Source: Candidatus Aerophobota bacterium
GTDB lineage: Bacteria > Aerophobota > Aerophobia > Aerophobales > B3-G15
DNA: 5,692 nt
Assembly: GCA_014859225.1 (NCBI GenBank)
Contig: JACUUP010000092.1
Span: forward strand, 1 to 5,692
Direction: 5' to 3'
The notes under the pieces were generated by a model, which did no database searches, was not told the origin of the DNA, and was given only the letters and a program-made list of their open reading frames with translations. A program made the translations under genes and the position numbers. Within the stretch, counting starts at the first letter, position 1. Every line of letters starts with the position of its first letter. Positions 83-5,692 of the stretch are shown here, in pieces.

Positions 83-709
83 ATGCTTAGAGGAAGGCAA
101 ATCTTCAGTAAATTATTAGTTATGGTGGTATTTGTTGGAGTGATGGCGGCGGGTGGGAGGATTTACCTCGTATCCCCCTCAGCATTAGCTGCTCCAATAC
201 AGACAGAAACTGTCCTTATTCCGGGAGATGAACAAAAGCAGCAGGGTAGTATGGAAGAGCTTCTAAATGAACTGGAGCCGCTGCAAAATCCAGCGAAGAA
301 TACGGACAACGAATCCTCGCTGAAGAAAAACCCAGCCCAGGTAGAGCAAATCTTAGCCGAACTTCAAAAGCTGGTGCCTCAACTTGAGGTTGACCGTCGT
401 CTACTGGCTGAACTTCGCAAACAAATTCCTCCGGTGCGAAAAGAAGCTGAAAGTTACCTTGAGAGAATAAAAGAATTAGCTGCAAAGTCAGATCCGACAC
501 AACTTGTTCCTCTTGTTAATAAAGTTATGGACAGAACTTCAACTTTCTATGACTGGGTGGAGGAAGAATTTGAAACTCCGGAAGAAAGAGCCATGGCCTA
601 TTATATGGGAGGAGCGCGAGAATTCCGTGATGCCTTTGAAGAGTTGAAAAACGCCATTTTATTAACTGTAATTAATCGTTTGGATGTTATAGCGAGTTTA
701 GTTGAGTAA
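83..709 (+). CDS. Exported coiled-coil/helical protein of unknown function
   Basis: I do not recognise this 208-residue protein. The N-terminus has a basic stretch (residues 2-10), a hydrophobic segment (about 11-24) and an A-L-A motif at 34-36 that fits signal peptidase I. It is therefore probably secreted or periplasmic, or else held by an uncleaved N-terminal anchor. The rest is almost all predicted helix and rich in Glu, Lys and Leu. Residues 56-70, 86-99 and 105-117 carry three related L-L-x-E-L segments, each followed by a proline. Residues 84-136 read like a coiled coil. The part from about 138 to 208 is helical with aromatic residues (F155, Y156, W158, Y173, Y174). There is no cysteine and no catalytic motif that I can see. 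The next gene starts 47 bases downstream in the same direction, so the two are probably co-transcribed. A structural, adaptor or anchoring role beside the next protein, which also ends in a coil, is inference only. Confidence 0.85.
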   Translation: MLRGRQIFSKLLVMVVFVGVMAAGGRIYLVSPSALAAPIQTETVLIPGDEQKQQGSMEELLNELEPLQNPAKNTDNESSLKKNPAQVEQILAELQKLVPQLEVDRRLLAELRKQIPPVRKEAESYLERIKELAAKSDPTQLVPLVNKVMDRTSTFYDWVEEEFETPEERAMAYYMGGAREFRDAFEELKNAILLTVINRLDVIASLVE

Positions 710-756: not shown

Positions 757-2976
757 ATGCGATTAATGGTTGGCCGACGCCGGGCGATAAGCGGTGTGTT
801 TTTTTTATTTTCCCTGTTGGCAATATCAATGTCATCTTATGCCGAGGTGAAAATTCCCACAAAGCCAGAGCGTCCAAGAGAGGGACAGGTGGCTAATCTG
901 ATGGAGCCGGTTAAGGATGTTCTTTCGGGCAGGTCATGGCTTATACTTGAGGGAATAGACCCGGGCCTACGAGCAAGACCTGGCTGGAATCCACTCACCC
1001 GACTTGACTGGAGGGCACTGGAGGAAATTTTCGTGGCACCATCTTCCTCCACTATAGGAAATCCTGCTCTGCAGGCTCCTGCTGCAGCATTTCTGGTTCC
1101 CTTCAGGCATCCGGCACCAGCTTTTAGTAGAGATGTTTTAATCACGCGCGACTTCAGTCAGATTCCCTTTCAAACCGAGCCTCATCTTGCCGTGCACCCC
1201 AATGATTCTGACCATATCGTGGTAGGGTTAATAGATTATAATTTTCCCACGGTATCCTCCTATGTTAGTATGGATGGTGGTATTACCTGGGAAGGTCCGT
1301 TTCAGGTCCCCTACCTACCGGATGACCGGGTTTCTGGTGGCGACCCCGTACTTGCTTTTGATAGGGAAGGCAAAGTATATTTTGCCAGCATATCCATGGG
1401 AGTAAAGGAGTTTACTGTTGGTCCTTTGTATTTTCGGGATACAGTGTCCAGTATAGTGGTTGCTCGTTCGGAGGATGGAGGGTTCAGCTGGCCTCAAACT
1501 GTATCCACAGCCCGCAGCACGGTAGGGATGAAAGAGCAGCGTATAGATGCAGAGGGAAAACTTCGGGGAATCCTGAGCGTCAGTTTCCTGGATAAGCCCT
1601 GGATGAGTGTTGGTCCTCATCCTGATTTTCCCGAAAAAGACGTTATCTATGTTACTTATACAGATTTTGAAGTTGATTATCGCATCCAGTGGGTGGATGA
1701 GTTACCTGCTTTAATGCCGCGAGCAATCCAGACCACAATCCGTCTGGTGAGCTCAAAGGATGGCGGCTGCACCTGGAGCGACCCGGTAGCGGTAAGCCCC
1801 ACGGTGCAAAGACTGTTCGGTGAAATAGATCAGCCTGTAGATATTCCTGGTGTCTTTGGCACCGACCGTGTAGTGCAAGGCTCTCAACCGGTAGTTGACA
1901 AGGACGGTAATCTGTATGTTGCCTGGCTGGACAGCACTGACGATGGCAGCATGAAGGGCCTGGCAGAGATTCATGTGGCGCGTTCTGCTGATGGGGGAAA
2001 AACGTTCTCCCGAGCGGTAATTGCCTCACTTTTTAATGAAATTCCCTTTCGCCCTCGCACTGCTTTTTTCCGCTATTGGGGAGCAGCTTTTCCCCAGATG
2101 GCTATCGGGCCAGAAGGGGGATTGTATATTGTATATACCGCCCGTCCGCCAGATAGAAGGGGCGATGATGGTGATATCTACTTCATTAGTTCCCTGGACA
2201 GCGGTAAAAGCTGGAGCCGTCCAGTGCGTCTCAATGATGACCGCTCGCAAAGTCTGCAATTTTTCCCTGCTGTTGATGTTGACCCTAAAGGGATCATCCA
2301 TGTTATGTGGGGCGATATGAGGGATGACCCTTCGCAAACAAAATATCATATCTACTACACTCGCTCATATGATAAGGGAAAAAGCTGGGGATTTGAGATT
2401 GAAGAGTTAGGGTTGAAGGTGCGAGATACCAGGGTTACTGATTTTCCTTCTAATCCCAACCGGGGATTCCCATACGGGCTTTTCATCGGCGACTATTTTG
2501 CCATCCAGGCAACTGAGGAAGATGTCTATATGGTGTGGGCAGATACCCGCTTAGGTGAATTTGGTCCCATGAACCAAAAAATTGCTTTTGCCAGACAGCG
2601 CTCTATCCGCTCTCCAGATATCTTTATTTCCCCTCCAGCAGGAGCAGGCGGGCAAAACATTGCAGTCCAGGGTTTCAACTTTCAACCGAACATGAATGTC
2701 TTTATTCAATTAGGAGATGCCACAATTGCCTCTGCCAGAACTAATGATGTTGGCCGCTTTACCACGAGCCTCTATATACCGGTTACGGGAGAGGGCCCAC
2801 AAACACTGAGTGTGCTGGATGAATCAGGGAATAGAGCTTCAACCTCATTTTACACGGAATTTGGCTTTGACAACCTGCAGGAGCTTCGCAGGGACCTTAT
2901 GGAGGAAATGGGAACTCTCAGGGACACACTAAAGGCATTAGAGTCTTTGCTGAGCGATTTGAAAGGTAAGAATTGA
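757..2976 (+). CDS. Secreted Asp-box (BNR) beta-propeller protein with TIG-like domain and C-terminal coil
   Basis: A 739-residue exported protein. Basic residues (R7-R9), a hydrophobic core (11-24) and S-Y-A at 27-29 give a clear signal peptide. After a linker (about 30-135) comes a beta-propeller with six Asp-boxes of the form S-x-D-x-G-x-x-W/F at 171-178, 238-245, 333-340, 410-417, 479-486 and 537-544. Between them recur inner-strand motifs such as NLYVAW (385-390). A seventh strand set (578-616, with GDYFAI and VYMVWAD) has no box, so seven blades are likely. Residues about 619-700 look like a TIG/IPT Ig-like domain (VQGFNF, then DVGRFTT). Residues 707-735 form leucine heptads. Automated annotation would probably say sialidase/exo-alpha-sialidase. 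The Asp-box is structural, however, and I cannot place the sialidase arginine triad or the Tyr-Glu pair. The only F-R-x-P (116-119) lies outside the repeats. Binding of a glycan, polymer or partner protein is as likely as catalysis. The only cysteine is C338, inside the third box. The gene runs directly into the next one. Confidence 0.93.
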   Translation: MRLMVGRRRAISGVFFLFSLLAISMSSYAEVKIPTKPERPREGQVANLMEPVKDVLSGRSWLILEGIDPGLRARPGWNPLTRLDWRALEEIFVAPSSSTIGNPALQAPAAAFLVPFRHPAPAFSRDVLITRDFSQIPFQTEPHLAVHPNDSDHIVVGLIDYNFPTVSSYVSMDGGITWEGPFQVPYLPDDRVSGGDPVLAFDREGKVYFASISMGVKEFTVGPLYFRDTVSSIVVARSEDGGFSWPQTVSTARSTVGMKEQRIDAEGKLRGILSVSFLDKPWMSVGPHPDFPEKDVIYVTYTDFEVDYRIQWVDELPALMPRAIQTTIRLVSSKDGGCTWSDPVAVSPTVQRLFGEIDQPVDIPGVFGTDRVVQGSQPVVDKDGNLYVAWLDSTDDGSMKGLAEIHVARSADGGKTFSRAVIASLFNEIPFRPRTAFFRYWGAAFPQMAIGPEGGLYIVYTARPPDRRGDDGDIYFISSLDSGKSWSRPVRLNDDRSQSLQFFPAVDVDPKGIIHVMWGDMRDDPSQTKYHIYYTRSYDKGKSWGFEIEELGLKVRDTRVTDFPSNPNRGFPYGLFIGDYFAIQATEEDVYMVWADTRLGEFGPMNQKIAFARQRSIRSPDIFISPPAGAGGQNIAVQGFNFQPNMNVFIQLGDATIASARTNDVGRFTTSLYIPVTGEGPQTLSVLDESGNRASTSFYTEFGFDNLQELRRDLMEEMGTLRDTLKALESLLSDLKGKN
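2961..2967 (+). promoter_or_regulatory. Ribosome binding site inside the end of the propeller gene
   Basis: GAAAGGT lies within the last codons of the upstream gene. It is about 6 bases from the TTG at 2973 and about 12 from the ATG at 2979. The spacing favours TTG, while codon preference favours ATG. The two choices differ by only two residues (M-K) in the signal peptide, so the mature protein is unaffected. Confidence 0.5.
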
Positions 2977-5384
2977 AAATGAGAAACACAAATATTGTCA
3001 TAATTGCTCTGATATTTACTATGATGGCGGCTGTGCCGGCTCATAGCGAACTTTCAAACGCACCTGGCGCTATCTTGCCGCCCCATAATTATCCGGGGCC
3101 AGCAGCGGAGCGGGTATTGTTTAGAGCTTTTGATGTTGACCGGGCCCCACGGGACCTTGAGGCGGGCAGAATGGATATTTATATGTTTAGCCTGAAAACC
3201 GCTGCTGCCCAGAGGATGCGCCATGATGTGCGCTTTAACCTGTTTGAGGCACCTGCCACAACCCTGTCCTTACTTCTCAATCCTGCTCCAGCACCACCCG
3301 GTGAACTTAATCCCTTTTCTATACGTGAGGTAAGGCAGGCAGTTCAGTATCTGGTGGACCGCGAGTTTATAGTTAGAGATATCTATCAGGGTATGGCTTT
3401 GCCCATGGTAAGCCATGTTAGTCCGCAGGAGTTTGATTTTTTAACAGTATATGACATTGACCGCGGGTCGGGTATAAGTTATGACCCTGAGTTAGGGCGC
3501 GAGTTAATTGCCGGGGCTATGGAAAGAGCAGGTGCAACCCTAATTGATGGTATCTGGCACTATGGAAAAGAGCCTGTAAGGCTGAAGTTAATTGCCCGGG
3601 TGGAGGATGAGCGGCGGGAAATTGCTAATCTGGTGCGTACAGAAATGGAGAAAGCAGGATTTATGGTGGCTATTTCTTACCGTCCCTTTGCAGCCGCAGT
3701 TTTAACCGTGTATTCCACAGACCCGAAGGCCTTTGAGTGGCATCTTTACACTGAGGGATGGGGTCGAGCTGCACCCCAGCGTTACGATTTTGCCACCATA
3801 AACCAGATGAATGCACCCTGGCTTGGTAATATGCCTGGCTGGCAGGAGGTAGGGTTCTGGCAATACCAGCACCCTGAGCTGGATGAGCTGGGTAAGCGTC
3901 TTTTCCGGGGGGAGTTTACCAGCTTGAAAGAGCGCAGCGATATTTACCGCCTTATGAGTAAATTAGGATTGGAGGAGTCGATGCGCATCTGGCTTGTAAC
4001 TGCCATCAACAGTTTTCCTGCCCAGAAGAATCTGGTCGGGGTTACCCGGGACCTGGTGGCTGGACCTCGTTCCCCCTGGACACTCAGGGAAGCTCATGTT
4101 CCGGGGCGAAATGAGGTTATCGTAGGACATCTGTGGGTATGGACAGAACGCACCACCTGGAATCCTGTGGGTGGGTTTGGCGATGTTTACAGTGTTGATA
4201 TATGGCGCAGTCTCCATGATTCACCTATGTGGAATCACCCCTTTACCGGTATCCCTCGCTCTTTCCGGGTTGATTTCCAGGTGGAAACGGCCGGCCCTAA
4301 AGAAAAGCTGATTGTGCCATCCGATGCGGTTATCTGGAATGCCCATACCAATAAATGGGATGCTGTAGAAGCCGGGACCAAGGCTACCAGCAAAGTTATA
4401 TTTGATTACTCCCGTTATTTTCAGTCTTCCTGGCACCATGGTGAGGCTATCAGCATGGCTGATGTTTTGTATTCCATAGTTCAAAGCTATGAATTAGCTT
4501 ATGATGCTGATAAATCCCGCATTGAAGTTGCCCTGGGAGTTACTACAAGACCTTATTTAGAGACTTTCCGGGGCTATCGGCTGCTGGATGATAAGCGCCT
4601 GGAAGTATACGTAGATTTCTGGCACTTTGAGGAGAGCTATATAGCATCCTACGCCTCCCCTGCATCTCTTAGTATGCCCTGGGAAATCCTTGCTGCCATG
4701 GATGATCTGGTTTTCTCCCAGCGCCGGGCTGCCTACAGTGACACAGCTGCTGCCCGTTTCAATGTTCCCTGGCTGAATCTGGTGATGGACCGGGATGCAC
4801 GCCTGGTGCGCAGGACACTCAGGCAATTTTTAAGTGAAGGCTCCATACCAGGGGAGGTTTTTCAAATTGGAAACGATTCTCTGGTAAGTCTTGAGTTGGC
4901 TATGAAACGATATCAGGCAGCTATTAATTGGTTTGATAAGTATGGACATCTTGTTATCAGTAACGGACCTTTTTTCCTTTTTTCCTATGACCCGCCTGCC
5001 CAGTTTGCTGAGCTACGAGCATTTAGAGATGATACCTATCCTTATCGGCCAGGAGACTGGTTTTTTGGCGAACCGCCGACTATGAGAATAGAACGGGTAG
5101 AAACACATCCAGTATCGCCCGGCGAAAAAATAAGCTTAAATGTGGTTGTGCATGGCCCGGGCACCTTAGGTCTTAGATATCTTTTTTTGGACCCGGTAAG
5201 CGACGAGGTTCTTAAAATAGAAGAAGCTGAGCCAGTTTTACCCGAGGGCAAGTTCACCATTTTGTTTGACGAGGAGTTTACTTCAAAACTTAAGCCGGGA
5301 TTTTATCACCTTTACCTTGCTGCATATAGCGACAGCGTTGCTTTTGTAGTTGAGCAAAAGGTGGACGTAGACGTTGTGCCGTAG
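2973..5384 (+). CDS. Family 5 extracellular solute-binding protein, circularly permuted, with C-terminal Ig-like domain
   Basis: An 803-residue exported protein of the oligopeptide/dipeptide-binding (SBP_bac_5, cluster C) type. A signal peptide (1-25, A-H-S cleavage motif) has no lipobox cysteine, and the whole protein lacks cysteine. Motifs normally in the second half of the family come first: an L-E-A-G-R-M-D-I block (62-69), NPFSIREVRQAV (113-124) with V-D-R-E (128-131), Y-D-P-E-L-G-R-E-L (170-178) and E-W-H-L-Y-T-E-G-W-G (255-264). First-half motifs follow: WNPVGG (396-401), WHHGEAISMADVLYS (487-501), and NGPFFLFSYD (664-673) with AFRDDTYPY (683-691). Residues about 706-803 form an extra beta-rich Ig-like domain. 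Ordinary members have about 500-600 residues, so this one is long. Proteins of this family deliver peptides, nickel or oligosaccharides to ABC permeases; the ligand here cannot be read, and no permease or ATPase gene is present. The start overlaps the upstream stop (TTG at 2973, or ATG at 2979), which suggests translational coupling. Family call firm; transport role and ligand uncertain. Confidence 0.92.
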   Translation: MKMRNTNIVIIALIFTMMAAVPAHSELSNAPGAILPPHNYPGPAAERVLFRAFDVDRAPRDLEAGRMDIYMFSLKTAAAQRMRHDVRFNLFEAPATTLSLLLNPAPAPPGELNPFSIREVRQAVQYLVDREFIVRDIYQGMALPMVSHVSPQEFDFLTVYDIDRGSGISYDPELGRELIAGAMERAGATLIDGIWHYGKEPVRLKLIARVEDERREIANLVRTEMEKAGFMVAISYRPFAAAVLTVYSTDPKAFEWHLYTEGWGRAAPQRYDFATINQMNAPWLGNMPGWQEVGFWQYQHPELDELGKRLFRGEFTSLKERSDIYRLMSKLGLEESMRIWLVTAINSFPAQKNLVGVTRDLVAGPRSPWTLREAHVPGRNEVIVGHLWVWTERTTWNPVGGFGDVYSVDIWRSLHDSPMWNHPFTGIPRSFRVDFQVETAGPKEKLIVPSDAVIWNAHTNKWDAVEAGTKATSKVIFDYSRYFQSSWHHGEAISMADVLYSIVQSYELAYDADKSRIEVALGVTTRPYLETFRGYRLLDDKRLEVYVDFWHFEESYIASYASPASLSMPWEILAAMDDLVFSQRRAAYSDTAAARFNVPWLNLVMDRDARLVRRTLRQFLSEGSIPGEVFQIGNDSLVSLELAMKRYQAAINWFDKYGHLVISNGPFFLFSYDPPAQFAELRAFRDDTYPYRPGDWFFGEPPTMRIERVETHPVSPGEKISLNVVVHGPGTLGLRYLFLDPVSDEVLKIEEAEPVLPEGKFTILFDEEFTSKLKPGFYHLYLAAYSDSVAFVVEQKVDVDVVP

Positions 5385-5692
5385 TCGTTCCTTAAGACAA
5401 GAATAGCTGGTGTCATCTCAAAGGCAAAGAAACCTCTGAAAATTCCTCTAATAAATTTAGCTGCCCGCCGAGTGTGTTCTCCATAAGGTGAGCGGCGAGT
5501 AGGCTTATTCTTGAGTTCTAACGCGTAGGTTCTTCACGGACGTGTTTTGTAAAAAGTTAGGAGAAAGATTACTGTCAGGTGAAATATCTTGCCTAAGGCC
5601 TTATTTATAATTATGGAAGTCCCCTGGCGGACAAATCTACCAGGCTAAAGTAGCAGGACAAAAGTAGAACTAAGCCGCCACCGTTGGAGAAC
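5385..5692. other. Downstream region without a recognisable gene
   Basis: These 308 bases hold no open reading frame with a credible start and ribosome binding site on either strand. No classic intrinsic terminator (GC stem plus T-run) follows the last stop codon. The region is rich in self-complementary segments: CAAGAATA at 5398-5405 with TATTCTTG at 5506-5513; CGCCG near 5466-5470 with CGGCG at 5493-5497; a small hairpin CCTGG/CCAGG at 5623-5627/5640-5644; a palindrome TAAGGCCTTA at 5594-5603; and the long inverted repeat listed separately. A TATAAT at 5606-5611 has no matching -35 element. A structured RNA, a long 3' untranslated region or a remnant of a small mobile element are all possible. 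I match it to no known RNA family. Confidence 0.5.
5476..5692. repeat. Long imperfect inverted repeat, right arm ending at the window edge
   Basis: The left arm (5476-5496) and right arm (5674-5692) pair in order: GTTCTCCA 5476-5483 with TGGAGAAC 5685-5692; GGTG 5487-5490 with CACC 5679-5682; GCGGC 5492-5496 with GCCGC 5674-5678. That makes 17 pairs with only small bulges. A further nested pair, AGTTCTA 5514-5520 with TAGAACT 5665-5671, extends it. The enclosed sequence is about 145 bases. Because the right arm touches the last base, the repeat may extend further, and any target-site duplication cannot be tested. It could be the closing helix of a structured RNA or the terminal repeats of a small non-autonomous element. 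Confidence 0.45.

Follow-up and report, generated by a model that had tools for sequence, protein, structure and literature searches.

Sequence and model evidence for a circularly permuted family 5 solute-binding protein in a Dpp/Opp-type operon, with relatives in archaea and several bacterial groups

Introduction

Natural circular permutation has rarely been reported in binding-protein folds. One case described in an ABC importer is the glucose receptor TpMglB-2 (Tp0684) from Treponema pallidum, which belongs to cluster B and for which the authors proposed a 'Type Ic' or 'Cluster Bc' subclass (PMC4990184). No description of circular permutation in OppA or other family 5 receptors was found in the open-access literature, most subscription papers lying outside the search, and relative to that literature the family 5 permutation reported here is new, natural permutation being already known in a cluster B solute-binding protein. 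Tandem duplication followed by trimming is the usual model for the origin of circular permutations. In the canonical core of family 5 receptors the motifs follow one another in the order WHxG..DV, NGPF and RQA..DRE, and the OppA of T. kodakarensis (7fi3) has been solved with an endogenous pentapeptide.

The stretch of DNA analysed here, referred to as the window, comprises 5,692 nucleotides from a Candidatus Aerophobota bacterium. We are highly confident that one of its genes codes for the extracytoplasmic receptor in a Dpp/Opp-type importer, and that the family 5 (cluster C) fold of this receptor has genuinely undergone circular permutation.

Results

The receptor is encoded on the + strand by an ORF of 803 codons (2973..5384) without interruption, and its residues are numbered here from the TTG codon at 2973. 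The start codon is likely the ATG at 2979 (codon 3), since a normal-looking signal peptide begins there. This signal peptide (residues 3-25, 2979..3047, + strand) is recognized in the sequence and corresponds to a low-pLDDT N-terminal helix in the structure model; a motif check for a lipobox within it found none. The motif positions given by the first-pass annotation hold, with RQAVQYLVDRE at residues 121-131, the W-H-H-G motif, WHHGEAISMADV, at residues 487-498 and NGPF at residues 664-667. This order, RQA, WHHG and NGPF, becomes collinear with the family 5 core only once the sequence is rotated, and for that reason we class the protein as a permuted variant and not as a regular SBP_bac_5 member.

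Two segments on the + strand make up the binding domain. Segment A (residues 46-379, 3108..4109) corresponds to the canonical C-terminal part according to Pfam, to 7fi3 (residues 318-595 and 662-722) and to the structure comparison, and contains RQA..Y..DRE, RVEDERR and YTEGW, while segment B (residues 380-705, 4110..5087) corresponds to the canonical N-terminal part (7fi3 22-309, i-Evalue 7e-27) and contains WNPVGG, WHHG..ISMADV and NGPF. The new junction, at which the former C-terminus meets the former N-terminus, lies at residues 378-396 (4104..4160, + strand), the maximum of the rotation scan described below. An all-beta extension follows at the C-terminus (residues 706-803, 5088..5381, + strand), delimited by the secondary structure of the model and by the alignment; the model indicates that it is probably Ig-like, and in Chloroflexi and archaeal relatives a stalk, often with a membrane anchor, comes after it.

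The Pfam profile SBP_bac_5 (PF00496) scored 73.4 bits against a curated cut-off of 32.4, which places the receptor in the family, yet the match covers residues 43-274 only (profile 146-357 of 368) and the native order contains no collinear core. Two other family 5 receptors of the same genome gave collinear matches (profile 3-365 and 1-326), and since both are matched from the start of the profile, the swapped match is due neither to the genome nor to the search. NCBIfam profiles produced weak fragment matches only.

Local comparison with the OppA of T. kodakarensis gave scores of 290 for residues 30-375 and 240 for residues 376-705, against a maximum of 64 in 100 shuffles, so that the segment matches are not attributable to chance. 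A family profile built from 36 relatives and searched against solved structures likewise matched 7fi3 as two blocks in swapped order, profile positions 35-284 aligning with chain residues 318-595 (i-Evalue 4e-42) and positions 389-684 with residues 22-309 (i-Evalue 7e-27), and the window protein alone, in its native order, gave two out-of-order stretches on the same structure. When the receptor was rotated (residues 380-705 followed by 46-379) it produced a single continuous match (16-573 on 7fi3 22-597, 160.9 bits). Upon rotation the DppA match increased from 18.4 to 24.0 bits and then included the segment before the join, and the SBP_bac_5 match increased from 73.4 to 80.6 bits, widening from profile 146-357 to 109-357. 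A scan of all rotations against OppA, which left out 7fi3 residues 598-661, reached 493 at the best cuts (378-396), compared with 290 for the native order and at most 64 for shuffles, and the rotated receptor shared with OppA 175 identities over 596 aligned residues (29%). As rotation controls, the two canonical receptors of the same genome scored 47 against this OppA, which is noise level and makes them uninformative for this purpose.

With full-length relatives, only 22 of the 83 members showed a pairwise rotation gain above 15% against OppA, since rotation moves the C-terminal extension into the interior of the alignment. As this makes the full-length test misleading, a half-by-half test, free of that problem, was used. 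Over the 83 members the median score was 33 for the first half against the canonical N-terminal part and 44 for the second half against the canonical C-terminal part (shuffles: mean 37.9, maximum 66), whereas the reverse pairings, first half with C-terminal part and second half with N-terminal part, reached 282 and 210. The swapped order is found in 83/83 relatives, archaeal and bacterial, with both other pairings at noise; a collinear alignment in the native order was seen in none of them, the match of the first half to the canonical N-terminal part staying at noise level throughout. These results bear on the reading that the protein contains two binding domains in tandem that fold independently, or a duplicated half, either of which would merely look swapped. 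Its length, 803 aa against ~500 for typical family 5 receptors, would fit such an arrangement, but the additional length is the C-terminal extension, the OppA of T. kodakarensis itself has 732 aa, and the first half of the structure model matches solely the C-terminal part of solved receptors. We consider this reading very improbable and reject it on the half-by-half test of the 83 members. The circular permutation proposed by the first-pass annotation, together with its expectation of one continuous match after rotation, is borne out by the agreement of motif order, rotated match and half-by-half scores. The annotation had also suggested tandem duplication and loss of the outer halves as the route; no intermediate of that route was seen in this analysis.

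The AlphaFold2 model of the receptor, obtained with the family alignment, reached a pLDDT of 90.6 and a pTM of 0.88, and Foldseek ranked 7fi3 first. With VIA-align, model residues 31-377 were placed on 7fi3 328-755 (Z 27.7, 343 residues, 3.8 A), and the N-terminal half of the model was also placed on the C-terminal parts of DppA (207-507), NikA and other receptors. For the first half the comparisons with solved receptors gave Z 21-28, the second half being matched by sequence; the VIA matches listed cover mainly one half of the model. An order-keeping aligner places one half of a permuted chain at a time. In line with the structural prediction of the first-pass annotation, no receptor was matched as a whole, and residues 46-381 were not seen as a complete independent domain, the first half of the model fitting the canonical C-terminal part only. 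No experimental structure of a permuted family 5 member was identified.

Representative genomes yielded 54 relatives when scanned. Almost all are full-length and have the same half order, and most are more than 50% identical along that order; they come from Spirochaetes, Calidithermus (Deinococcota), Chloroflexota, Poribacteria and archaea. In the phylum of Archaeon HR01 the family profile matched 155 of 250 genomes, the matches listed being mostly end-to-end and in uninterrupted frames of 800-1000 aa, and with a canonical OppA as query every two-piece gene of that phylum checked by eye was swapped. Strong matches occur in 13 of the 111 Deinococcota genomes, the window's own phylum carries the receptor gene in 1 of 17 genomes (this one only), and a search of plasmid records found no relative of the permuted receptor. 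The half swap is old, fixed and common to many archaea and several bacterial groups, and not a private feature; the earlier guess that it marks an existing subfamily was right, if understated.

A contig assembled from gene pieces joined in the wrong order would also produce swapped halves, and such an artefact could be suspected given that the window makes up an entire 5.7-kb contig in a fragmented genome bin and that the receptor gene is absent from the other genomes of the 17-genome phylum. However, the receptor ORF is one uninterrupted frame, the operon carries on into contig C273 through a 33-nt overlap, and the same order is present in the 54 relatives from independent assemblies, Calidithermus isolates among them. 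The relatives and the overlap refute a chimeric contig, which we regard as extremely improbable.

A very distant permuted relative of 887 aa (L084 6020-8683, G061:C87) lies among ABC importer genes of branched-chain-type appearance, without Dpp-type permeases. In Sulfolobus, SSO1273 is an oligopeptide-binding surface protein (PMC4124505). Permuted receptors of 818 aa at L114 (4321-6777) and L132 (6360-8816), possibly from Sulfolobales, have no permease gene within the fetched flanks. SSO1273 might be a member of the permuted group alongside these two receptors.

Upstream of the receptor, on the + strand, the window encodes a secreted coiled-coil protein (83..709), whose homologues lie close to the operon in 14 loci, counting the window, and a secreted beta-propeller protein of the BNR/Asp-box type (757..2976). 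The latter, the conserved upstream partner, also has a TIG-like region, and its C-terminus is a coiled coil. Downstream, the window extends 308 bp past the receptor gene. Its last 33 nt (5660..5692, + strand) recur unchanged as the opening 33 nt of contig C273. Encoded on C273 are permease B, which shares 72% identity with its counterpart in a spirochaete relative, permease C (479 aa) and two ATPases, of which the second is truncated where the contig stops. On account of the shared 33 nt, the two contigs are probably genomic neighbours, and the transporter genes very probably follow the receptor. The usual bacterial locus consists of a coiled-coil gene (in some), the BNR gene, the permuted receptor, permease B (~350 aa), permease C (~479 aa) and one or two ATPases; permeases B and C are also next to the receptor in the majority of the archaeal loci that do not belong to the BNR group. 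Being linked to BPD_transp_1 permeases and oligo_HPY ATPases, the receptor gene is part of a Dpp/Opp-type operon. The permease C found beside permuted receptors mostly has 463-522 aa, compared with 287-313 aa in the canonical systems of the genome. In the permease C of L006 (5657-7096), L082 (1153-2592) and the archaeal loci L115-L133, the BPD domain is confined to the last 190 residues. Genes of an S41 peptidase cluster adjoin four spirochaete operons on the upstream side (L002, L003, L005 and L008), and at L005, the one locus checked, Pfam assigned S41, tricorn C1 and PDZ domains.

The BNR gene immediately precedes the permuted receptor gene in ~50 loci and is co-inherited with it in one clade of 49 rows. 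The BNR protein was modelled as a propeller (pLDDT 80.3) that resembles CylK, Photorhabdus lectins and glycoside hydrolases in fold comparison, and its sequence has sialidase-like Asp boxes. A hydropathy test found C-terminal anchors in both proteins in 23 loci, in neither in 14, in the BNR protein only in nine and in the receptor only in one, the two anchors co-varying for the most part. We infer that, at the surface, the BNR protein would act as a partner in binding or trimming.

A tree of 84 rows places the bacterial members on a single branch (SH-aLRT 94) nested among the archaeal ones, and the archaeal loci with a BNR gene all group with the bacteria in a strongly supported group of 49 rows. 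The OppA of T. kodakarensis sits on a very long branch (3.6 changes per column), and the root and origin are uncertain for that reason. The tree is consistent with a single old permutation in archaea, after which the BNR gene joined and the cluster was transferred to bacteria, as the simplest reading. The presence of the gene in a single genome of the 17 in the phylum suggests that it was acquired by transfer into this genome, the alternative being that the window's contig is a binning error. The GC content is 0.48-0.50 on contigs C221 and C273, compared with 0.40 over the initial 6 kb of contig C220, which could reflect either transfer or a binning error.

Discussion

As judged from the sequence, and with the support of the model, the two halves of the binding domain are swapped. 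The receptor chain starts just ahead of the strand that canonically comes after the NGPF segment, continues to the old C-terminus and reaches the old N-terminus through a short linker; it ends past NGPF, where the probably Ig-like extension begins. The protein most likely functions as the receptor of a peptide-type importer; it would close on its ligand like the two-lobed family 5 receptors and pass the ligand on to permeases B and C, with two oligo_HPY-type ATPases supplying the power. In permease C, the long part that follows the first membrane helix may lie outside the cytoplasm and provide a docking site for the receptor. A plausible benefit of the permutation is that the chain leaves the domain at another place, which would allow the C-terminal Ig-like region, stalk or anchor to hold the receptor in a different orientation.

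Peptides are the most likely ligand, in view of the pentapeptide in 7fi3 and of the S41-type peptidase genes beside four spirochaete operons. The lectin- and glycosidase-like fold of the BNR partner leaves room for sugars or glycopeptides, and one may ask whether the main ligand is a sugar or glycoconjugate that the propeller binds or sets free. The placement of the BNR gene directly upstream, its co-inheritance in the 49-row clade, its fold and the co-varying anchors are in favour, and some family 5 receptors do bind sugars, such as TM1223 with mannobiose. On the other hand, permuted receptors outside the BNR clade occur without the propeller, the nearest solved relative holds a peptide and peptidase genes lie beside some operons, so that we consider a sugar or glycoconjugate as main ligand less likely than not, and peptides the preferred assignment.

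More tentatively, and with slightly less than even confidence, we hypothesize that these loci represent an ancient archaeal branch of Dpp/Opp-type importers, later transferred to bacteria, with permuted receptors, a long permease C and, in a subclade, the BNR protein, which would constitute an undescribed importer type whose receptor topology, permease and anchoring co-evolved. Throughout a large radiation of archaea and in several bacterial phyla the permutation is fixed, in a group that is poorly visible to standard annotation, as Pfam detects half a domain and collinear profiles under-score all its members. A canonical-order relative with a solved structure exists for this group, and the permuted receptors make testable the spread of the permutation, any effect on permease docking and any role in C-terminal anchoring.

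Among known systems, TpMglB-2 and the window receptor both have a circularly permuted receptor topology, but the former has a cluster B glucose-binding fold, of another family and with another cut point; all strong sequence and fold matches listed for the window receptor are to family 5 receptors, and MglB does not appear in those lists. With DppA, OppA and NikA (cluster C) it shares an SBP_bac_5 match over the cut-off, the half-by-half match and operon genes of DppBCDF type, and it differs from them in the swapped halves and the additional, probably Ig-like C-terminus, as does its system in the partner permease C of ~475 aa with a long N-terminal part. The best solved relative, the OppA of T. 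kodakarensis, has its halves in the canonical order, unlike the window receptor, and yet it carries the same RVEDER and YTEGW motifs, belongs by sequence to the same subfamily and, once the receptor is rotated, is 29% identical to it over the whole domain.
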